DNA of 64,000 bases from Chiridota heheva. Lineage: Eukaryota; Echinodermata; Holothuroidea; Apodida; Chiridotidae. The stretch is taken from NCBI GenBank assembly GCA_020152595.1, contig JAIGNY010002056.1, positions 686,501 through 750,500 on the forward strand. Reading direction: 5' to 3'. The notes under the pieces were generated by a model. That model was not told the DNA's origin and searched no databases. It saw nothing but the letters and a program-made list of their open reading frames with translations. Within the stretch, counting starts at the first letter, position 1; every line of letters starts with the position of its first letter. Both the position numbers and the translations under genes were made by a program. Positions 7,682 to 64,000 of this stretch are shown one piece after another.

Positions 7682-9053
7682 TACAAAAAATACAAGGTTC
7701 CCTGCCACGTATAGCGCCGCCGCCACTGTTAAGGCCCAAATAATTGACCGTTTACATTACCTTAAATACAAGCTTCCCTACCCCGTATAGCGCCGCCGCC
7801 ACTGTTAACGCCCAAAGAATTGACCGTTTACATTACCTTAAATACAAGCTTCCCTACCCCGTGTGGCGCCGCCGCCACTGTTAACGCCTAAATAATTGAC
7901 CGTTTACATTACCTTAAATACAAGCTTCCCTACCCCGTATAGCGCCGCCGCCACTGTTAACGCCCAAAGAATTGACCGTTTACATTACCTTAAATACAAG
8001 CTTCTCTACCCCGTATGGCGCCGCCGCCACTGTTAACGCCTAAATAATTTACTATTTTTATTACCTTAAATACAAGCTTCCCTGCCCCGTATGGCGCCGC
8101 CGCCACTGTTAACGCCCAAATAATTGACCGTTTACATTACCTTAAATACAAGCTTCCCTGCCCCGTATGGCGCCGCCGCCACTGTTAACGCCCAAAGAAT
8201 TTACCGTTTACATTACCTTAAATACAAGCTTCCCTGCCCCGTATGGCGCCGCCGCCACTGTTAACGCCCAAAGAATTTACCGTTTACATTACCTTAAATA
8301 CAAGCTTCCCTGCCCCGTATGGCGCCGCCGCCACTGTTAACGCCCAAATAATTGACCGTTTACATTACCTTAAATACAAGCTTCCCTACCCCGTATGGCG
8401 CCGCCGCCACTGTTAACGCCCAAATAATTGACCGTTTACATTACCTTAAATACAAGCTTCCCTGCCCCGTATGGCGCCGCCGCCACTGTTAACGCCCAAA
8501 GAATTTACCGTTTACATTACCTTAAATACAAGCTTCCCTACCCCGTATGGCGCCGCCGCCACTGTTAACGCCTAAATAATTTACTATTTACATTACCTTA
8601 AATACAAGCTTCCCTACCCCGTATGGCGCCGCCGCCACTGTTAACGCCCAAATAATTGACCGTTTACATTACCTTAAATACAAGCTTCCCTACCCCGTAT
8701 GGCGCCGCCGCCACTGTTAACGCCCAAATAATTGACCGTTTACATTACCTTAAATACAAGCTTCCCTGCCCCGTATGGCGCCGCCGCCACTGTTAACGCC
8801 CAAATAATTGACCGTTTACATTACCTTAAATACAAGCTTCCCTGCCCCGTATGGCGCCGCCGCCACTGTTAACGCCCAAAGAATTGACCGTTTACATTAC
8901 CTTAAATACAAGCTTCCCTACCCCGTATGGCGCCGCCGCCACTGTTAACGCCTAAATAATTTACCGTTTACATTACCTTAAATACAAGCTTCCCCGCCCC
9001 GTATAGCGCCGCCGCCACTGTTAACGCCCAAAGGGATTTACCGTTTATCTTAC
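7682..9053 (-). repeat. 76-bp minisatellite, 18 units, in gene A intron 4
   Basis: The marker AAGCT (AAGGT in the first unit) recurs from 7694 to 8986, a distance of 1292 bp or exactly 17 x 76, so there are 18 units with no length drift. Read in the gene's direction, a unit is AAGGTAATGTAAACGGT, then TTGGGCGTTAACAGTGG, then CGGCGGCGCCATACGGGG and GAAGCTTGTATTT. Each unit therefore begins like the exon 4 splice donor. Confidence 0.9.
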
Positions 9054-9186
9054 CTTTGCAAATGCTGTGTAATGTTCCGCACCCGTTGTTATCAAGTTCA
9101 TTTGATCTGCAATTGTTATGAATAGCTTTGCTACGTAAGTCGTCAACTCTTTCGGTGGATCTTATCTTTGAGCTTTTTTTTTCTTC
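9054..9186 (-). CDS. Gene A exon 4
   Basis: Open exon of 133 nt, encoding EEKKSSKIRSTERVDDL and onward to GCGTLHSICK. The donor is AAAG|GTAAGATAAACGG. The sequence directly after this donor is the seed of the 76-bp minisatellite. It is the least conserved exon between A and B at protein level. Confidence 0.6.
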
Positions 9187-47148: not shown

Positions 47149-51080
<3,932 letters not shown>

Positions 51081-52883: not shown

Positions 52884-55800
52884 GTAATATCAAGTGTCAG
52901 TCTCCATCTAATTGTAGTATGAAGCTCATTCCGGTTCCACTAATATTATATGGGCCACACCACAGGATGTTCCTAGCGTTATGGCAACCTATATACTTAA
53001 TACATAGACCTATATGTATTAAGTATATGGGTTTCCATAACGCTAGGAATACCTGTGGGCCATAACGCTAGGAACACCTGTAGGCCACACTTGGAATGCA
53101 TTTGGCAATGAATAGGCTGCATAGGGAAAATCTAAAATTGTATTGATTTTTTATTTTTTTATTTAAAAACTCACATCCCTAGTCATAAAACTCTTAAAAT
53201 TTGCAAGATAAATTCCTTTACAGTAAAACCTGCAAAAACCAAAAAACCTTCCTTAGGTGCAAAATCAGTGAAAATTTTAGACACTTTTTGAGGCCTTAAA
53301 AATGAAAGTTCAATCGTTTTGTATTACCAAAATCAATTGAAATTACCCTTCCAAAAATATCAATATGTACTGTTATGTAGTCATTTATTAATTAGTCATC
53401 ACAATGAATTTGATCTGGGCTACTAACATAGCTTTCAGAATAGATTCACACTTTCCCCAATTTACACCTAAGAAGAAAAGTTTTTAAACATTTTTTGCAG
53501 GGAATAGATTGTTAAGGAATTTTTGTTATAAAATAGAGATTTACTTACTTTAACTTTTGCTGATTCCTTTTGGTTGATCCTAATATGATGGACCTCCAGT
53601 CGTCTCTATTCCACATAGCTGTCATCATTTGATTAACTTCACAAGCCCTCTGTCTTCCTTTTACATCAATGAAGTCTTTAGTTCATCTTTCTCTTCCTCT
53701 GTGCTCTGTGTCCAGAGTAATAGCTGGGAACAAGCTCATTGTCTCTTCTGAAGTAGTGTCCAGCTAGCTTTAGCCTCCTATTTCTTATTTTTTTGATACT
53801 GCAAGAAAAAGAAAGCCTATGAATTTCTATTTTTAAGTTATAGGCCTATTGTTTCTATTTTTCGTTAACATTCTCTGAATAGCAATTTAATACTAGTCTG
53901 GAAAGTATGTATGTTACGCTGAAGATTTTCAGCGTGGAGCTTAGCCAGTTTGACCAAATTTGGCATACTTTTCTCTCTGATTTATAAAGAAATACATAAA
54001 ATTACAGTGGTATTTATCAAAACTGGCATAAATACATGTAGGTTTTCAAAGATTCTGGTGGAAATCTTCAGCGTGGAGAAAACAAATTTTTCCATTGGGT
54101 TTAATATGACCCCCTCCCCAAATACATACTGTACACCATGTGCAACCAACTAATTTATATTTGCTGAAAATTTCTTGTTGGTTCATCTCTAACTCTTTTC
54201 TTCGTTTTTGTAGACGGATTCTGATAGATACAGGAGAGAAGAACAGACCAGAATTTATATGCAACTTAAAGAATGCCCTGCTGCAAAATAGCTGCTCTAT
54301 ACAAGAAATTGTCGTGACACACTGGCATCGAGATCACACTGGGGGCATAGACGCTATTTTGGATGGATTAGATTTAGGTATTGTATGTGCTTGCAGTGGC
54401 TGATCTAGAGGGGTCTGGGGGTTGGGTTCATTTTATATTTTATCATATTTTGTCTTGCGATTTTGTGGCTTAAAAACCATGAGATATGTCAAAAAAGTAG
54501 TAAAACTGAATCTAGGAAGGGTATTTATAATATACCACCTGAAGAAAGTTTGAGGAAAAATAGTTTCAATAGTGTAAAAATTAAATAAATTTTCTTTAAA
54601 ATACATCAAGACTTTGAGGACTTCGAGGCTGTGACATCACAAATAGTCTGATTTGAGTTGTTTCTACAGAAGTGATACCAAACTTTAAACTTGAATATCT
54701 CCTTAACGAAATAAGATTTTTGAATGCTTTCTTCAACATTTTGTTTTTTTTGAAGTCCTCTTTCATATAAGATGGACATGCAAGACCTCTGAACTAATCC
54801 TTTGCGTAATAGGGGAAAGAAATGTAAAATTAAAGGAGTTTGAATTTTGAATAGAACCATTATATAGCACACAACTGGTGTAATATTATGAAGATGAGAT
54901 GGCAGTTTACTCTCTGGACCTTAAAAGGTAAGAAGTTTAGGATTTAGAAGTTTGGGATATTGCTGGTGAAATTTACATGTACATACGCTTTCACTACCAG
55001 CAAAAACATTGCATTGAGTCAATAGGAAAACAAACTAGGATAAATTTATTGTGTGTGTGATGTTATTTGATGCTTTTGGGTTTTGAATGTAGAGAAAGAA
55101 AAATTTGTTAAACATTTATTTCAGATAAGAACATCAAAGTTTCAAAATTACCGAGAAATCCCCATCAAGATGAGGAGACAGCGAATGGTCTCAAATATCA
55201 CTATCTCAAGGATGGAGATGTAATCCAAACACAGGGAGCAACTCTAAGGTTGGTGTAGACAGTGATGTATTGTAAAATAGTAAGAGGGTGGGGGAGCTTT
55301 TTCTTAGATACGGTAGCAACACTACATTGACAAACGTTGACATTACATGTATGTTGGGTTTGCATCAGTGGTGAAACTTCATTTTAATGAAAAATATGTT
55401 TCTTTAGGTCTCCCTCCATGAAAATTCTGGGTATCTAATATTTATATATCCGATCCAGTATACTGCATGACAGCAAAGACATAACCAGGGGGTGCACATG
55501 TCCCCCCCCCCCCTCTCCAAGCACACATAAAATCAAAACTAAAAAATTGTCAAAAAACAAGGTAAATTGAAGCAGGAAAGTGATACATCAGATGATATTC
55601 ATTTTGGAAAATTTTTCAATTTTGAAAATTTTTTATTTTCGAACATTTTTTCAATTTTTTGGACATTTTCTTCAATTTTCGGGAAGTTTCCTTCAATTTT
55701 GGGGAAATTTCCTTTATTTTGGGGAAATTTGCTTCAATTTTCATGCAATTTCCTTCATTTTTGGAAATTTCTTCAAATTTTGACCAAATTTTCCAATAAT

Positions 55801-56224
55801 TTTACTCACACCTGCTTTGAACCCTCACTCTGCGATATTATTGCCGTTTTGGGTGCCCCATCTTTGACTCTGCCTCCCAAACTTGTTTTCAAAAAAGTGC
55901 TGGTAGAGTAAGGGTTAAATGTATGAAAATGCAACATTCAAATAATGCACAGACTTGATCAATTGTGTGAAGAAAATATATCCCTTCTGCATGTTTGCCT
56001 TCTTCCCCCTCTCCCCCTTCTCTCACTCTACTCCGGATTTCTTTTAAAAAAGGATATGAAATGTAATCTTTAAAAATATAATTTCTACATTTGCAATTAT
56101 TTTTAACCTTATCTTTGGCAGGGTCATGTACACACCTGGACATACAGATGACCACATGTGTCTTGTACTAAAGGAAGAGGATGCAGTCTTCACTGGGGAC
56201 TGTATACTTGGAGAAGGCACAACT
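52762..56224 (+). CDS. LACTB2: LACTB2, metallo-beta-lactamase-fold endoribonuclease, 5' part
   Basis: Exons 52762-52883, 54214-54377, 55125-55248 and 56122-56224 join in phase to the first 171 residues; the human protein has 288. LACTB2 is a mitochondrial single-strand RNA endoribonuclease with a di-zinc site. Visible motifs are [15 protein letters not shown] near the start, LIDTGE at 44-49, the zinc motif [10 protein letters not shown] at 76-85 (His77, His79, Asp81, His82), YTPGHTDDH with His144, and [12 protein letters not shown] with Asp163. These positions agree with the human zinc ligands within one residue. The later zinc histidine and the C-terminal winged-helix part are not found before the window end, so the next intron is longer than 7.7 kb. 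No lesion is seen. The start codon is in good register with the vertebrate start. Confidence 0.95.
52964..53080. mobile_element. Short palindromic form of the 27.5-kb MITE
   Basis: TGTTCCTAGCGTTATGGCAA, CCTATATACTTAATACATA, then after a few bases the reverse complement TATGTATTAAGTATATGGG and CCATAACGCTAGGAATAC. It has almost no loop, as if the inside of the long form had been lost. A third half-end (CCATAACGCTAGGAACACC) follows. Confidence 0.65.
53081..53570. other. LACTB2 intron 1 sequence, nothing recognised
   Basis: AT-rich, with no element identified. Confidence 0.4.
53575..53795 (-). pseudogene. LINE C-terminal fragment
   Basis: On the minus strand: [19 protein letters not shown], then a GKRKxGRP-like part in another frame, then a DRxxWR-like part. 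This is the tail usual in many animal LINE proteins, with several frame changes and stops. Confidence 0.5.
54214..54377 (+). CDS. LACTB2: LACTB2 exon 2 (zinc motif HxHxDH)
   Basis: TTTTTGTAG|ACGGATTC to TTAG|GTATTG. Carries [14 protein letters not shown] and [15 protein letters not shown], the main zinc-binding loop. Confidence 0.95.
54440..55103 (+). repeat. Copy of 36,270-36,940 in LACTB2 intron 2
   Basis: Nearly identical through the loop, right arm and flank of the 36-kb foldback element (AAACTGAATCTAGGAAGGG, GACTTCGAGGCTGTGACATC, GCGTAATAGGGGAAAGAAAT, GTAGAGAAAGAAAAA). It ends about 20 bp before exon 3. Confidence 0.75.
55125..55248 (+). CDS. LACTB2: LACTB2 exon 3
   Basis: TTATTTCAG|ATAAGAAC to CTAAG|GTTGGT. 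Encodes [10 protein letters not shown] and [17 protein letters not shown], typical of LACTB2 proteins. Confidence 0.93.
55600..55800 (-). repeat. TTCAATTTTCGGGAA-type simple repeat
   Basis: The inverted counterpart of the GGAAATTTCCCGAAAATTGA sequence at 3233 and 4052. Confidence 0.6.
55822..55918 (-). mobile_element. Copy of the CCCTTACTCTACCA MITE
   Basis: GCCGTTTTGGGTGCCCCATC, TTTGACTCTGCCTCCCAA and GTGCTGGTAGAGTAAGGGTT, followed by TTAA at the border. Confidence 0.6.
56122..56224 (+). CDS. LACTB2: LACTB2 exon 4
   Basis: TTTGGCAG|GGTCATG to ACAACT|GTGAGT. Encodes [16 protein letters not shown] and [13 protein letters not shown], supplying zinc ligands His144 and Asp163. This is the last LACTB2 exon in the window. 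Confidence 0.95.
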
Positions 56225-56334
56225 GTGAGTGGAATTAAGATTTTGTCTGAACTACAAGCAAAAAATTCTGCTTGCTTTTGTTGAAAAATATTTTAGCATT
56301 TTGGACAGTAATATACAATAAAAGTCAACGTTTC

Positions 56335-58040
56335 TGATTGGTCAGACACAAATACTGACTACCAATCAATAACTGCACTGATTGGTCATACACAAATACT
56401 GACAACCAATCAGTAGCTGCACTGATTGGTCAGACACAAATACTGACAACCAATCAATAACTGCACTGATTGGTCATACACAAATACTGACAACCAATCA
56501 ATACCTGCACTGATTGGTCAGACACAAATACTGACAACCAATCAATACCTGCACTGATTGGTCATACACAAGTACTGACAACCAATCAGTAGCTGCACTG
56601 ATTGGTCATACACAAATACTGACAACCAATCAATAACTGCACTGATTGGTCATACACAAATACTGACAACCAATCAATACCTGCACTGATTGGTCAGACA
56701 CAAATACTGACAACCAATCAATACCTGCACTGATTGGTCATACACAAATACTGACAACCAATCAATACCTGCACTGATTGGTCAGACACAAATACTGACA
56801 ACCAATCAATACCTGCACTGATTGGTCATACACAAATACTGACAACCAATCAATACCTGCACTGATTGGTCATACAAGTACTGACAACCAATCAGTAGCT
56901 GCACTGATTGGTCATACACAAATACTGACAACCAATCAATAACTGCACTGATTGGTCATACACAAATACTGACAACCAATCAATACCTGCACTGATTGGT
57001 CAGACACAAATACTGACAACCAATCAATACCTGCACTGATTGGTCATACACAAATAATGACAACCAATCAATACCTGCACTGATTGGTCATACACAAGTA
57101 CTGACAACCAATCAGTAGCTGCACTGATTGGTCATACACAAATACTGACAACCAATCAATAACTGCACTGATTGGTCATACAAATACTGACAACCAATCA
57201 ATACCTGCACTGATTGGTCAGACACAAATACTGACAACCAATCAATACCTGCACTGATTGGTCATACACAAATACTGACAACCAATCAATACCTGCACTG
57301 ATTGGTCAGACACAAATACTGACAACCAATCAATACCTGCACTGATTGGTCATACACAAATACTGACAACCAATCAATACCTGCACTGATTGGTCATACA
57401 AGTACTGACAACCAATCAGTAGCTGCACTGATTGGTCATACACAAATACTGACAACCAATCAATAACTGCACTGATTGGTCATACACAAATACTGACAAC
57501 CAATCAATACCTGCACTGATTGGTCAGACACAAATACTGACAACCAATCAATACCTGCACTGATTGGTCATACACAAATAATGACAACCAATCAATACCT
57601 GCACTGATTGGTCAGACACAAATACTGACAACCAATCAATACCTGCACTGATTGGTCATACACAAATACTGACAACCAATCAATACCTGCACTGATTGGT
57701 CATACACAAATACTGACAACCAATCAATACCTGCACTGATTGGTCATACACAAATACTGACATCCAATCAATACCTGCACTGATTGGTCATACACAAATA
57801 CTGACAACCAATTAATACCTGCACTGATTGGTCATGCACAAATACTGACAACCAATCAATACCTGCACTGATTGGTCATACACAAATACTGACAACCAAT
57901 CAATACCTGCACTGATTGGTCATACACAAATACTGACAACCAATCAATAACTGCACTGATTGGTCATACACAAATACCGACAACCAATCAATAAGTGCAC
58001 TGATTGGTCATACACAAATACTGACAACCAATCAATAACT
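56335..58040. repeat. 44-bp minisatellite of paired CCAAT boxes, about 39 units
   Basis: The unit is TGATTGGTCATACACAAATA, then CTGACAACCAATCAATACCT, then GCAC. TGATTGGT and ACCAATCA are inverted repeats, so each unit can form a hairpin and carries an ATTGG and a CCAAT. Variants (CAGAC/CATAC, AATACC/AATAAC/AGTAGC) alternate in a regular order, suggesting higher-order duplication. It lies in the LACTB2 intron after exon 4. Confidence 0.9.
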
Positions 58041-58152
58041 GTCGCCGAAGTGACTAGCACACTGTACATATACACACAATGCTTATATAGTACGTACTTA
58101 ATTAAAAACTACCTCATACAAAAAGTTATTTGTACCATTTACCAAACGTAAC

Positions 58153-58284
58153 ACTTTTGCTGGTCGTTCTATCAGAGTAATGGAACCGACATGGTGGAAT
58201 GACCTACCAGATTATATTAAACTTGCTCTGTCGGTAAATGTTTTTATATGTCATTTGAAAACTTACCTTTTCAATCAATTTTAG
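58153..58284 (+). pseudogene. LINE RT C-terminal fragment
   Basis: The plus-strand frame TFAGRSIRVMEPTWWNDL, PDYIKLALSVNVF and HLKTYLFNQF ends at TAG. It matches the W-N-x-L-P tail and final FKxxLKTxLF helix of many LINE proteins. It is opposite in strand to the RT at 61-64 kb, so from a different insertion. Confidence 0.65.
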
Positions 58285-58424
58285 TGGTATCTCTTATTTT
58301 ATTTGTTTTGTTTATATCGGTCCCATTGCACTGGGAGAGCGGCTGTCATTCTTGTTTTGTCATTGTATTGATGTTTTATTTGTTAAGCGAGCACCACTGC
58401 AGATTGCCAGATCGACGACGAGTG

Positions 58425-58580
58425 AACACACAATTACAATGACAGGGTCGTCGCCTGTTATGATAGTAACAATGCTATCACGAAACGCTTAATACGACCT
58501 GAACGAGAACATAGGTACGACGTATGGACAGACAACATCGACAACCAAGTCAATGTCCACGGCCTTTGATAACCAGTTGT
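58425..58580 (+). repeat. Dispersed 170-bp repeat, copy 3
   Basis: GTGAACACACAATTACAATG through ACGAAACGCTTAATACGACC to CAAGTCAATGTCCACGGCC, as at 13,995. Confidence 0.7.
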
Positions 58581-58589
58581 AGTGCACTG

Positions 58590-58664
58590 GTGTGTCTACC
58601 CAACCCAGGCTTGAACCCAGGGCCTCGTGGTCTGTAGACATGTATGATAACCCCTGCACCACAG
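58590..58664 (-). mobile_element. tRNA-like SINE head
   Basis: On the minus strand: TGTGGTGCAGGGGTTATC (A-box region) and CCTGGGTTCAAGCCTGGG (B box GGTTCAAGCC). It abuts the first unit of the 95-bp array. Confidence 0.5.
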
Positions 58665-61655
58665 AACACTGCCTTAAGGAATGCCACTAGTAACAGGGAT
58701 TTGGTTGGATTTATGTCAGGTAAGTCACTAATGTAAATAACAAATAGTATTGGACCTAGAACACTGCCTTGAGGAATGGCGCCAGTAACAGGGATTTGGT
58801 TAGATTTATGTCAGGTAAGTCACTAATGTAAATAACAAATAGTATCGGACCTAGAACACTGCCTTGAGGAATGCCACTAGTAATAGGGATTTGGTTAGAT
58901 TTATGTCAGGTAAGTCATTAATGTAAATAACAAATAGTATCGGACCTAGAACACTGCCTTGAGGAATGCCACTAGTAATAGGGATTTGGTTAGATTTATG
59001 TCAGGTAAGTCATTAATGTAAATAACAAATAGTATTGGACCTAGCACACTACCTTAAGGAATGCCACTAGTAACAGGGATTTGGTTGGATTTATGTCAGG
59101 TAAGTCACTAATGTAAATAACAAATAGTATTGGACCTAGAACACTGCCTTGAGGAATGCCACTAGTAATAGGGATTTGGTTAGATTTATGTCAGGTAAGT
59201 CATTAATGTAAATAACAAATAGTATTGGACCTAGAACACTGCCTTAAGGAATGCCACTAGTAACAGGGATTTGGTTAGATTTATGTCAAGTAAGTCATTA
59301 ATGTAAATAACAAATAGTATCTGACCTAGAACACTGCCTTGAGGAATGCCACTAGTAACAGGGATTTGGTTGGATTTATGTTAGGTAAGTCATTAATGTG
59401 AATAACAAATAGTATCTGACCTAGAACACTGCCTTGAGGAATGCCACTAGTAACAGGGATTTGGTTGGATTTATGTTAGGTAAGTCATTAATGTGAATAA
59501 CAAATAGTATCTGACCTAGAACACTGCCTTGAGGAATGCTACTAGTAACAGGGATTTGGTTGGATTTATGTTAGGTAAGTCATTAATGTAAATAACAAAT
59601 AGTATTGGACCTAAAACACTGCCTTGAGGAATGCCACTAGTGACAGGGATTTGGTTGGATTTATGTCAGGTAAGTCATAAATGTAAATAACAAATAGTAT
59701 CGGACCTAGAACACTGCCTTGAGGAATGCCACTAGTAATAGGGATTTGGTTAGATTTATGTCAGGTAAGTCATAAATGTAAATAACAAATAGTATCGGAC
59801 CTAGAACACTGCCTTGAGGAATGCCACTAGTAACAGGGATTTGGTTGGATTTATGTCAGGTAAGTCATAAATGTAAATAACAAATAGTATCGGACCTAGA
59901 ACACTGCCTTGAGGAATGCCACTAGTAATAGGGATTTGGTTAGATTTATGTCAGGTAAGTCATTAATGTAAATAACAAATAGTATTGGACCTAGAACACT
60001 GCCTTAAGGAATGCCACTAGTAACAGGGATTTGGTTGGATTTATGTCAGGTAAGTCATTAATGTAAATAACAAATAGTATTGGACCTAGAACACTGCCTT
60101 GAGGAATGCCACTAGTAATAGGAATTTGGTTAGATTTATGTCAGGTAAGTCATTAATGTAAATAACAAATAGTATTGGACCTAGAACACTGCCTTAAGGA
60201 ATGCCACTAGTAACAGGGATTTGGTTAGATTTATGTCAGGTAAGTCATTAATGTAAATAACAAATAGTATTGGACCTAGAACACTGCCTTGAGGAATGCC
60301 ACTAGTAACAGGGATTTGGTTAGATTTATGTCAGGTAAGTCATTAATGTAAATAACAAATAGTATTGGACCTAGAACACTGCCTTGAGGAATGCCACTAG
60401 TAATAGGAATTTGGTTAGATTTATGTCAGGTAAGTCATTAATGTAAATAACAAATAGTATTGGACCTAGAACACTGCCTTAAGGAATGCCACTAGTAACA
60501 GGGATTTGGTTGGATTTATGTCAAGTAAGTCATTAATGTAAATAACAAATAGTATTGGACCTAGAACACTGCCTTGAGGAATGCCACTAGTAACAGGGAT
60601 TTGGTTAGATTTATGTCAGGTAAGTCACTAATGTAAATAACAAATAGTATCTGACCTAGAACACTGCCTTGAGGAATGCCACTAGTAACAGGGATTTGGT
60701 TAGATTTATGTCAGGTAAGTCATTAATGTAAATAACAAATAGTATTGGACCTAGAACACTGCCTTGAGGAATGCCACTAGTAACAGGGATTTGGTTAGAT
60801 TTATGTCAGGTAAGTCACTAATGTAAATAACAAATAGTATCTGACCTAGAACACTGCCTTGAGGAATGCCACTAGTAACAGGGATTTGGTTAGATTTATG
60901 TCAGGTAAGTCACTAATGTAAATAACAAATAGTATTGGACCTAAAACACTGCCTTGAGGAATGGCGCCAGTAACAGGGATTTGGTTAGATTTATGTCAGG
61001 TAAGTCACTAATGTAAATAACAAATAGTATTGCACCTAGAGCACTGCCTTGAGGAATGCCACTAGTAACAGGGATTTGGTTGGATTTATGTCAGGTAAGT
61101 CATTAATGTAAATAACAAATAGTATTGGACCTAGAACACTGCCTTGAGGAATGGCGCCAGTAACAGGGATTTGGTTAGATTTATGTCAGGTAAGTCATTA
61201 ATGTAAATAACAAATAGTATTGGACCTAGAACACTGCCTTGAGGAATGCCACTAGTAACAGGGATTTGGTTAGATTTATGTCAGGTAAGTCATTAATGTA
61301 AATAACAAATAGTATCGGACCTAGAACACTGCCTTGAGGAATGCCACTAGTAACAGGGATTTGGTTGGATTTATGTCAGGTAAGTCATTAATGTAAATAA
61401 CAAATAGTATTGGACCTAGAACACTGCCTTGAGGAATGCCACTAGTAACAGGAATTTGGTTGGATTTATGTCAGGTAAGTCATTAATGTAAATAACAAAT
61501 AGTATTGGACCTAGAACACTGCCTTGAGGAATGCCACTAGTAACAGGGATTTGGTTGGATTTATGTCAGGTAAGTCATTAATGTAAATAACAAATAGTAT
61601 TGGACCTAGAACACTGCCTTGAGGAATGCCACTAGTAACAGGAGTTTGGTTGGAT
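58664..61655 (-). repeat. 95-bp minisatellite made from LINE reverse transcriptase, 32 units
   Basis: The marker ACACTGCCTT recurs from 58,666 to 61,611: 2945 bp, exactly 31 x 95, so there are 32 copies with no net length change. Read on the minus strand a unit encodes [20 protein letters not shown] then LPDINP, which is RT motif B and the stretch before the catalytic box. Because 95 is not a multiple of 3, the array is not one long reading frame. The catalytic FADD block that should follow is absent at the low-coordinate end. Confidence 0.95.
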
Positions 61656-61910
61656 TTATTTCCATTCACCATTACTTGTTGAAATCTCTGAGATAGAAAT
61701 GATCTTATCCACCCATACAGAGGATTAATTATTCCATAAGATTTAAGCTTGTGTAGAAGTTGCTCATGAGGCACTGTATTAAAGGCCTTCATAAAATAAA
61801 ATCAAGATAGATGACATTGACTACTTCATTATTCTCCCAAGTGTAGGTACTGTAAGATCATTCAACACTTTAAGTAATTGCAAAGTAGTGGATCTCCTTC
61901 ACATAAATCC
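61640..61910 (-). pseudogene. LINE reverse-transcriptase fragment between the two arrays
   Basis: The minus strand reads HFGFM, stop, RRSTTLQLLKVLND, then with frame changes [41 protein letters not shown] and VTSGIPQGS. It links the 56-bp array (upstream RT part) to the 95-bp array (downstream RT part). Confidence 0.85.
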
Positions 61911-63594
61911 AAAATGTCTATAGCTTATAAGGTCATTATTAATAAGGTGCGCCATGAGATCATCAGGAATAATTGATAGCTTATAAGGTCATTATTAATA
62001 AGATGCGCTGTGAGATCATCACGAATAATTGATAGCTTATAAGGTCATTATTAATAAGGTGCGCCATGAGATCATCACAAATAATTGATGGCTTATAAGG
62101 TCATTATTAGTAAGGTGCGCCATGAGATCATCACGAATAATTGATGGCTTATAAGGTCATTATTAATAAGATGCGCTGTGAGATCATCACGAATAATTGA
62201 TGGCTTATAAGGTCATTATTAATAAGATGCGCTGTGAGATCATCACGAATAATTGATGGCTTATAAGGTCATTATTAATAAGGTGCGCCATGAGATCATC
62301 ACAAATAATTGATGGCTTATAAGGTCATTATTAGTAAGGTGCGCCATGAGATCATCACGAATAATTGATGGCTTATAAGGTCATTATTAGTAAGGTGCGC
62401 CATGAGATCATCAGGAATAATTGATAGCTTATAAGGTCATTATTAATAAGATGCGCTGTGAGATCATCACGAATAATTGATGGCTTATAAGGTCATTATT
62501 AATAAGGTGCGCCATAAGATCATGGATAATTGATGGCTTATAAGGTCATTATTAATAACATGCGCCATGAGATCATCACGAATAATTGATGGCTTATAAG
62601 TTCATTATATATAAGGTGCGCCATGAGATCATCACGAATAATTGAAGGCTTATAAGGTCATTATTAATAAGGTGCGCAATGAGATCATCACGAATAATTG
62701 AAGGCTTATAAGGTCATTATTAATAAGATGCGCCATGAGATCATCACTAATAATTAAAGGCTTATAAGGTCATTATTAATAAGGTGCGCAATGAGATCAT
62801 CACGAATAATTGATGGCTTATAAGGTCATTATTAGTAAGGTGCGCCATGAGATCATCACGAATAATTGATGGCTTATAAGGTCATTATTAATAAGGTGCG
62901 CCGTAAGATCATCAATAATTGATGGCTTATAAGGTCATTATTAATAAGATGCGCCATAAGATCATCACGAATAATTGATGGCTTATAAGGTCATTATTAA
63001 TAAGGTGCGCCATGAGATCATCACAAATAATTGATGGCGTATAAGGTCATTATTAATAAGGTGCGCCATGAGATCATCACGAATAATTAATAGCTTATAA
63101 GGTCAATATTAATAAGATGCGCTATGAGATCATCACGAATAATTGATAGCTTATAAGGTCATCATTATTAAGATGCGCCGTGAGATCATCACGAATAATT
63201 GATGGCTTATATGGTCATTATTAATAAGATGCGCTATGAGATCATCACGAATAATTGATGGCTTATAAGGTCATTATTAATAAGATGCGCTATGAGATCA
63301 TCACGAATAATTGATGGCTTATAAGGTCATTACTAATAAGATGCGCCATGAGATCATCACGAATAATTAATAGCTTATAAGGTCATTATTAATAAGATGC
63401 CCCATGAGATCATCACGAGTAATTGATGGCCTATATGGTCATTATTAATAAGGTGCGCCATGAGATCATCACGAATAATTAATAGCTTATAAGGTCATTA
63501 TTAATAAGACGCCCCATGAGATCATCACGAGTAATTGATGGCCTATATGGTCATTATTAATAAGGTGCGCCATGAGATCATCACGAATAATTGA
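61911..63594 (-). repeat. 56-bp minisatellite made from the same reverse transcriptase, about 30 units
   Basis: The unit GGCTTATAAGGTCATTATTA, ATAAGGTGCGCCATGAGATC, ATCACGAATAATTGAT repeats about 30 times with a 56-bp period. On the minus strand it encodes IIRDDLMAHLINNDLIS, the block between the RT motifs LTS..CKILE and HGF. A few units have small deletions or insertions. Confidence 0.93.
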
Positions 63595-63900
63595 CTCGAG
63601 TATTTTACAGATAATACTTGTCAGGCTCACGGTACGGTAGTTTGAGACTGTAGATTTGTCACTGTAGATTTGTCACTGTAGATTTGTCACTAGATTTGTC
63701 ACCCTGTTTGAAAATAGCGGAGACGTTTGCAAGCTTCCAGTTGGCTGGGACAATCTTGTTCTGTAAAGAGCTCAAGAACAGCTTTGTAAATGGAGGTGCG
63801 AGGATTTCAGAACACTCATGAAAAACCTGTGGATGAGTGCCATCTGGTCCTGATGATTTGCTGACATTTAAACTATTCAACTTCTTAGCACTATGTCCTC
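63595..63900 (-). pseudogene. LINE reverse transcriptase, N-terminal part
   Basis: The minus strand carries KSSGPDGTHPQVFHECSE, VPANWKLANVSAIFKQGDKS, then, past a short GTAGATTTGTCACT triplication, VSLTSIICKILESIIR running into the 56-bp array. These are the first RT blocks of a CR1/Rex-like LINE. The 63,640-63,695 triplication disturbs the frame. The element continues beyond the window. Confidence 0.85.
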
Positions 63901-64000
63901 AGTAATGATTACTGTGCCAATTTCAGAGTTATGATGGAAAAAAGGACTGTTAGTCACATCTTTAGTAGTGAATACGCTCTGGAAAAAAGGACTGTTAGTC

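Follow-up and report, generated by a model that had tools for sequence, protein, structure and literature searches.

Minisatellites that appear to have arisen within the reverse transcriptase of a dead CR1-like LINE in an intron of Chiridota heheva

We analysed a 64,000-nucleotide stretch of the genome of the holothurian Chiridota heheva (1.10 Gb in 3744 contigs; hereafter the window, C2044:686501-750500), in which a dead fragment of a long interspersed nuclear element (LINE) holds minisatellites that, judged from the sequence, were born within its own reverse transcriptase (RT). Two large arrays with units of 56 and 95 bp dominate the fragment. We favour, with a probability of about 0.8, an origin in which seed tandem duplications in a dead intronic LINE were enlarged by slippage or unequal exchange, a process that is not peculiar to this locus. 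A first-pass annotation of the DNA had described two internal RT pieces amplified in place and in the correct minus-strand order, as about 30 x 56 bp and 32 x 95 bp with neither period a multiple of 3. Tandem Repeats Finder and translation bear this description out (30.0 and 31.5 copies, periods 56 and 95).

The LINE fragment lies on the minus strand and extends from 58,663 to about 64,485, past the window end (L009:985). Three-frame translation gives, in minus-strand order, the RT blocks SGPDGTHPQVFHECSEIL, then LESIIRDDLMAHLINNDLIS, which forms the 56-bp array, and then the block of the 95-bp array, with shifted frames. LINE RT flanks the 56-bp array on both sides and continues to the start of the 95-bp array, as seen in the minus-strand translation. 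The adjoining stretch window:61601-61801 matches the Pfam family RVT_1 (E 6.3e-9), as do the relatives L021 (E 3e-20) and L032 (E 1.6e-27), which identifies the domain as a LINE-type RT. Exo_endo_phos_2 was detected in L012 (E 7.1e-4) and L021 (E 7e-5), in both below the curated cut-off, and the window copy is truncated before the apurinic-type endonuclease region. At the low-coordinate side the remainder of the RT is missing because a repeat resembling a short interspersed nuclear element (SINE) cuts the end of the 95-bp array. We provisionally take the element to be CR1-like from the resemblance of its motifs.

Other copies of the element were recovered by genome searches with four queries, namely each of the two large arrays and two stretches of the LINE that are not expanded; the searches score the best candidates only and skip very common words, so that the copy census is a lower bound. 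At least four copies of one subfamily cover the 56-bp segment: those in the window, L012 (C2396), L013 (C3560) and L014 (C637). Upstream of this segment they are 84-89% identical to one another and differ by 0.11-0.16; between the arrays their divergence is 0.13-0.21 (L014 over 83-85 sites only). Both segments are single in L013, where an insertion of about 1.4 kb has since interrupted the 95-bp one. L012 carries the 56-mer 9.8 times and the 95-mer region once, with small deletions, and in L014 the 56-bp segment is single. Fragments of 56-80 bases at 83-86% identity on C2343, C330 and C3680 (L016) fall outside the 56-bp segment. The arrays thus have the marks of minisatellites derived from a transposable element (TE): their units are internal LINE pieces that stand in place, the element continues on the flank, and the units have single-copy counterparts in other LINE copies. 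The first-pass annotation had allowed for arrays existing elsewhere without the LINE. Among the scored matches (14 for the 56-bp and 34 for the 95-bp array), no array of either unit occurred outside the parent LINE, in contrast to what would be expected of a dispersed satellite.

A second 56-bp array was found inside another copy of the window LINE, at L012:4815-5356 on C2396, with 9.8 units whose boundaries agree with those of the window units within about one base. Eight of the 14 scored matches to the 56-bp array lie in the window, four in the C2396 copy, and two are single units in LINE copies. Mean divergence among the units is 0.083 in the window and 0.132 in L012; the latter resembles the inter-copy LINE divergence (0.11-0.16), which suggests that this array dates from about the time when the copies dispersed. 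The 30 window units comprise 24 types, of which 19 were seen once. The two arrays have mostly their own unit variants and slightly different unit consensus sequences. One two-base variant is common to units W_13 and L012_10, which is weak evidence in view of how many changes there are.

The 95-bp array has LINE sequence on one flank only and, among the scored matches, was seen nowhere but in the window copy: ten of the 34 matches lie in the window, and the other 24 span 61-81 bases each, with identities of 76-89%. The search for other LINE copies with the same arrays, which the first-pass annotation had proposed, thus gave the 56-bp array in L012 and, among the scored matches, no second 95-bp array. 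The 95-bp units have a mean divergence of 0.044, and the 31 full units comprise 24 types, 18 of them seen once. The two expansions look separate, as had been proposed, and the 95-bp array, whose units are more alike, is probably the younger; turnover also makes units more similar, and ages read from unit divergence call for caution.

Two smaller arrays in the same LINE, of 14 and 45 bp, add to the two first described. The 14-bp unit is present in 2.9 copies in L012 and once in L013, while in L014 it is expanded to about 30 units, each 12-14 bp long. Read by eye, the ends of the 45-bp duplication have about 9 bp of microhomology, the junction of the 95-bp unit about 3 bp (GAC, with L013 taken as the ancestral state) and that of the 56-bp unit only about 1 bp. 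Predicted folding is ordinary for the 56-mer, with a fraction of 0.42 of same-size L013 stretches folding at least as well, and the 95-mer folds below the mean of such stretches. A hot spot driven by hairpins was rejected on these grounds.

Growth of short LINE segments into arrays was also seen in further copies. An 18-bp unit occurs twice in L017, twice in L033 and 18 times in L019, and is single in seven more of the 22 loci scanned; like the 56-mer in the window and L012, it has the same boundaries in these three copies. Arrays of 52, 61 and 66 bp occur in other LINE copies. At L031:2685-3393, a 61-bp x 11.7 array reads by eye as the post-RT region of the same LINE group (EQLAKLNLPTLTYRRARGE). 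Separately, a 56-bp x 17.5 array at L021:8912-9890 has a unit that reads by eye like part of a gypsy-type RT (IIKPSTSEWSSPVVMV), and is perhaps another coding piece of a transposon turned into a minisatellite.

The comparison of copies shows that short RT segments, single elsewhere, were first duplicated in tandem, and the microhomology of about 1, 3 and 9 bp fits an origin of these duplications in replication slippage, in template switching or in microhomology-mediated repair. A defective progenitor probably carried the 56-bp seed, and likewise the 14-bp one, before it was copied to this site and others, a step that the substitutions dispute. After insertion, each array may have grown alone by slippage or unequal exchange, to 30 units in the window and 9.8 in C2396; unit divergence and the unequal copy numbers point to this course, and slippage and exchange are the mechanisms we infer for the arrays.

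The 56-bp arrays of the window and L012 would thus probably descend from one inherited duplication with unequal growth, a history that we rank above two identical duplications because the unit boundaries match and because the two copies share a 5-bp insertion and the repetition of the 14-bp unit. L013 lacks the 5-bp insertion, which lies close to the 56-bp array, and so do the 16 more distant copies, out of 18, that reach the site; L016 and L023 fall short of it, and L014 ends there. Repetition of the 14-bp unit is common to the window copy, L012 and L014, whereas L013 has the unit once. Several results weigh against a shared seed. In an alignment of 19 rows and 732 columns, 13 rooted sites unite the window copy with L013, six unite it with L012, and ten unite L012 with L013; the unrooted counts are seven for window and L013, four for window and L012 and one for window and L014. 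Ultrafast bootstrap support is 89 for window and L013, on a very short branch, and 79 for L012 and L014. For the order of the four copies, tree and site patterns show short inner branches and are at odds with the shared indels. The grouping of window and L013 argues against a simple descent of the 56-mer seed in which only the window copy and L012 inherited it. Moreover, the 56-bp duplication breaks the reading frame, so that its progenitor could have been mobile only in trans or by DNA duplication, either of which is hypothetical; the seed may have been spread by transposition.

These conflicts lend some weight to the alternative that the 56-bp segment is a recurrent hot spot of tandem duplication, or that homologous LINE copies hand on arrays to one another; in either case one minisatellite would arise at identical base positions in copies that the substitutions do not make sisters. 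Taken together, we regard these as a minor possibility. Independent duplication in two LINE copies with matching boundaries, taken by itself, is unlikely. It would agree with the substitutions, which pair the window with L013 rather than L012, and with the slight difference in unit consensus between the two arrays. However, by our estimate both boundaries are unlikely to match to about a base by chance, the junction has no more than about 1 bp of microhomology, the predicted single-strand folding is ordinary (0.42), and the 5-bp insertion near the array is shared as well.

The first-pass annotation had read the two expansions as the sign of an amplification mechanism acting on the locus. To compare the locus with its surroundings, we counted arrays with a period of at least 12 and a score of at least 60. 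Across 21 LINE copies, 14 arrays were found in 38.1 kb, or 3.67 per 10 kb (4.54 once the arrays themselves are taken out of the LINE length), a count that omits the mixed or fragmentary L016 and L023 and in which several LINE limits were set by hand. Ten random 5-kb stretches contained 20 arrays in 50 kb, or 4.00 per 10 kb, which make up 26% of their bases; one of them, L040 (C3393:2247653-2252652), is wholly one array of about 28 bp, and two of the ten are free of arrays. The flanks of the LINE loci have 43 arrays in 127.7 kb (3.37 per 10 kb, 10% of bases), and the remaining window with its continuation has 37 in 67.7 kb (5.47 per 10 kb, 18% of bases). The LINE loci came from 11 of the 23 other contigs of one match list, C637 and ten places from a further search (one overlapping), and the random stretches from long contigs already seen; neither set is cleanly random.

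Internal arrays are present in eight of the 21 LINE copies, that is, in seven of the 20 besides the window copy; the window copy is array-rich, yet it has company. An intron or element that itself drives repeated tandem amplification is improbable in our judgement. Its support comes from the crowding of the locus: four arrays in 1.2 kb of LINE, 44-bp and 23-bp arrays beside them, and an intron of which about 76% is arrays. Calculated from the random density, four or more arrays in the LINE length of the window copy (1.2 kb) have a Poisson P of 0.0016 (0.085 for two or more), and two or more large arrays have a P of 0.013, with about 0.27 such copies expected among 21; the density of large arrays is based on seven hand-picked in the random sample. 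These values count against a process common to the genome. On the other side, random 5-kb stretches are similarly dense, seven of the 20 other LINE copies carry internal arrays at other loci, and a 56-bp array recurs at a second locus with boundaries that match. Array formation looks like a habit of the whole genome rather than something special to this locus, and the comparison does not support the proposed local mechanism.

There is a small chance that the array lengths are in part an artefact of assembly, with expanded or collapsed copies. The many distinct units make a simple repeated mis-join unlikely, though the copy number may still be wrong. It is very improbable that the 56-bp array passed from one locus to the other by rolling-circle amplification or because extrachromosomal circles reinserted at homologous LINE copies: this would explain why the boundaries match although the substitutions do not place the two copies together, but there is no direct sign of it, each array has mostly its own unit variants, and the shared 5-bp insertion lies outside the array. 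That the LINE captured pre-existing satellites, for which we found no supporting point, is scarcely credible and was rejected, as each unit consists of RT coding sequence in its proper place and order, L013 has single-copy counterparts, and no array outside the LINE was found among the scored matches.

The arrays appear to sit in a single intron of about 9.1 kb of a LACTB2-like gene, to which the LINE is antisense, since LACTB2-like exons lie on either side. The exon to the right of the arrays (L009:1813-2037) matches structure 4ad9, BETA-LACTAMASE-LIKE PROTEIN 2 (E 4.7e-17), and has no Pfam match at 0.01. The stop-to-stop stretches at 54,110-54,400 and 56,060-56,281 presumably belong to the same gene, as they carry LACTB2-like motifs. 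With exon borders approximate, tandem arrays account for about 76% of the intron. The SINE-like repeat has, by eye, a resemblance to tRNA A and B boxes; ARAGORN found no tRNA in it, and its L010 copy has matching 12-base flanks like target-site duplications. The dispersed repeat of about 305 bp next to it gave 3800 first-look candidates, of which 40 were scored, the 39 others being 87-92% identical. Coordinates are compiled in Table 1. Elsewhere in the window, a further large array (76 bp x 18) occupies 7688-9056, and a long C-rich stretch at 47159-51046 has a higher-order repeat of about 492 bp.

Table 1. Features of the array-bearing intron and its LINE fragment, in window positions.
Feature	Position	Strand	Remarks
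Stop-to-stop stretch with putative LACTB2-like exon, upstream of the array-bearing intron	56060..56281	+	LACTB2-like motif; exon borders approximate
Third large intronic array	56334..58041	.	44 bp x 39.0 (Tandem Repeats Finder)
Abundant ~305-bp dispersed repeat	58107..58415	+	Peptide like the C-terminal end of a LINE open reading frame (ORF), by eye
SINE-like dispersed repeat	58423..58662	-	End is the low-coordinate border of the 95-bp array; also in L010, L020
95-bp array	58663..61659	-	Tandem Repeats Finder: 31.5 copies, 96% matches; RT-derived unit
Unexpanded LINE RT between the two large arrays	61660..61922	-	Frameshifts; 5-bp insertion otherwise only in L012
56-bp array	61923..63594	-	Tandem Repeats Finder: 30.0 copies, 91% matches; from RT block LESIIRDDLMAHLINNDLIS
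5' part of LINE fragment	63595..64000	-	Extends beyond the window to about 64,485 (L009:985)
14-bp array	63647..63702	-	4.1 copies, KGDKSTVSNY region (Tandem Repeats Finder)
Perfect 45-bp x 2.2 tandem duplication	63935..64033 (63935..64000 inside window)	-	Crosses window end

As a single case the locus is modest, while its setting could be useful: a 1.1-Gb genome where tandem arrays make up about a quarter of a small random sample. LINE copies that share a unit and differ in its growth (2 versus 18 and 9.8 versus 30 units) could serve as natural replicates, and such sets could measure the rates of minisatellite birth and growth with the parent sequence known.

Minisatellites that derive from LINE coding sequence and expand after a seed duplication are already known in print; with these precedents, a locus-specific mechanism is not needed. 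The comparisons that follow are with those parts of the published accounts drawn on here. Ahmed and Liang (2012, PMC3389668) report that at least 23% of human minisatellites and satellites are TE-derived and that such repeats expand over time as units are duplicated locally; some were probably propagated by transposition, as in the LTR12 case. The present arrays share the TE origin and the growth by local duplication. They differ in that the human cases without a known mechanism mostly have two units, compared with about 30 here and two large arrays in one LINE RT, and in that the genome samples examined here are far richer in arrays. LINE ORF2 sequence is also known from satellites, among them HinfI of chicken (CR1), PROsat of Phodopus and Pvc20 of Phoca (both LINE-1) (PMC9659126). 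These likewise are tandem repeats with LINE ORF2 coding sequence, HinfI involving a CR1 element, but they are named satellites, whereas the present arrays are local minisatellites found inside LINE copies only. A two-stage model, in which a few tandem units form first and then expand by unequal exchange, with microhomology proposed for some cases (PMC12628747), resembles our reading in its seed, its expansion and its microhomology. Its worked cases are mainly miniature inverted-repeat transposable elements (MITEs), Helitrons and tandem insertions, and for LINEs they concern untranslated regions, whereas here it is the RT coding sequence that was expanded.

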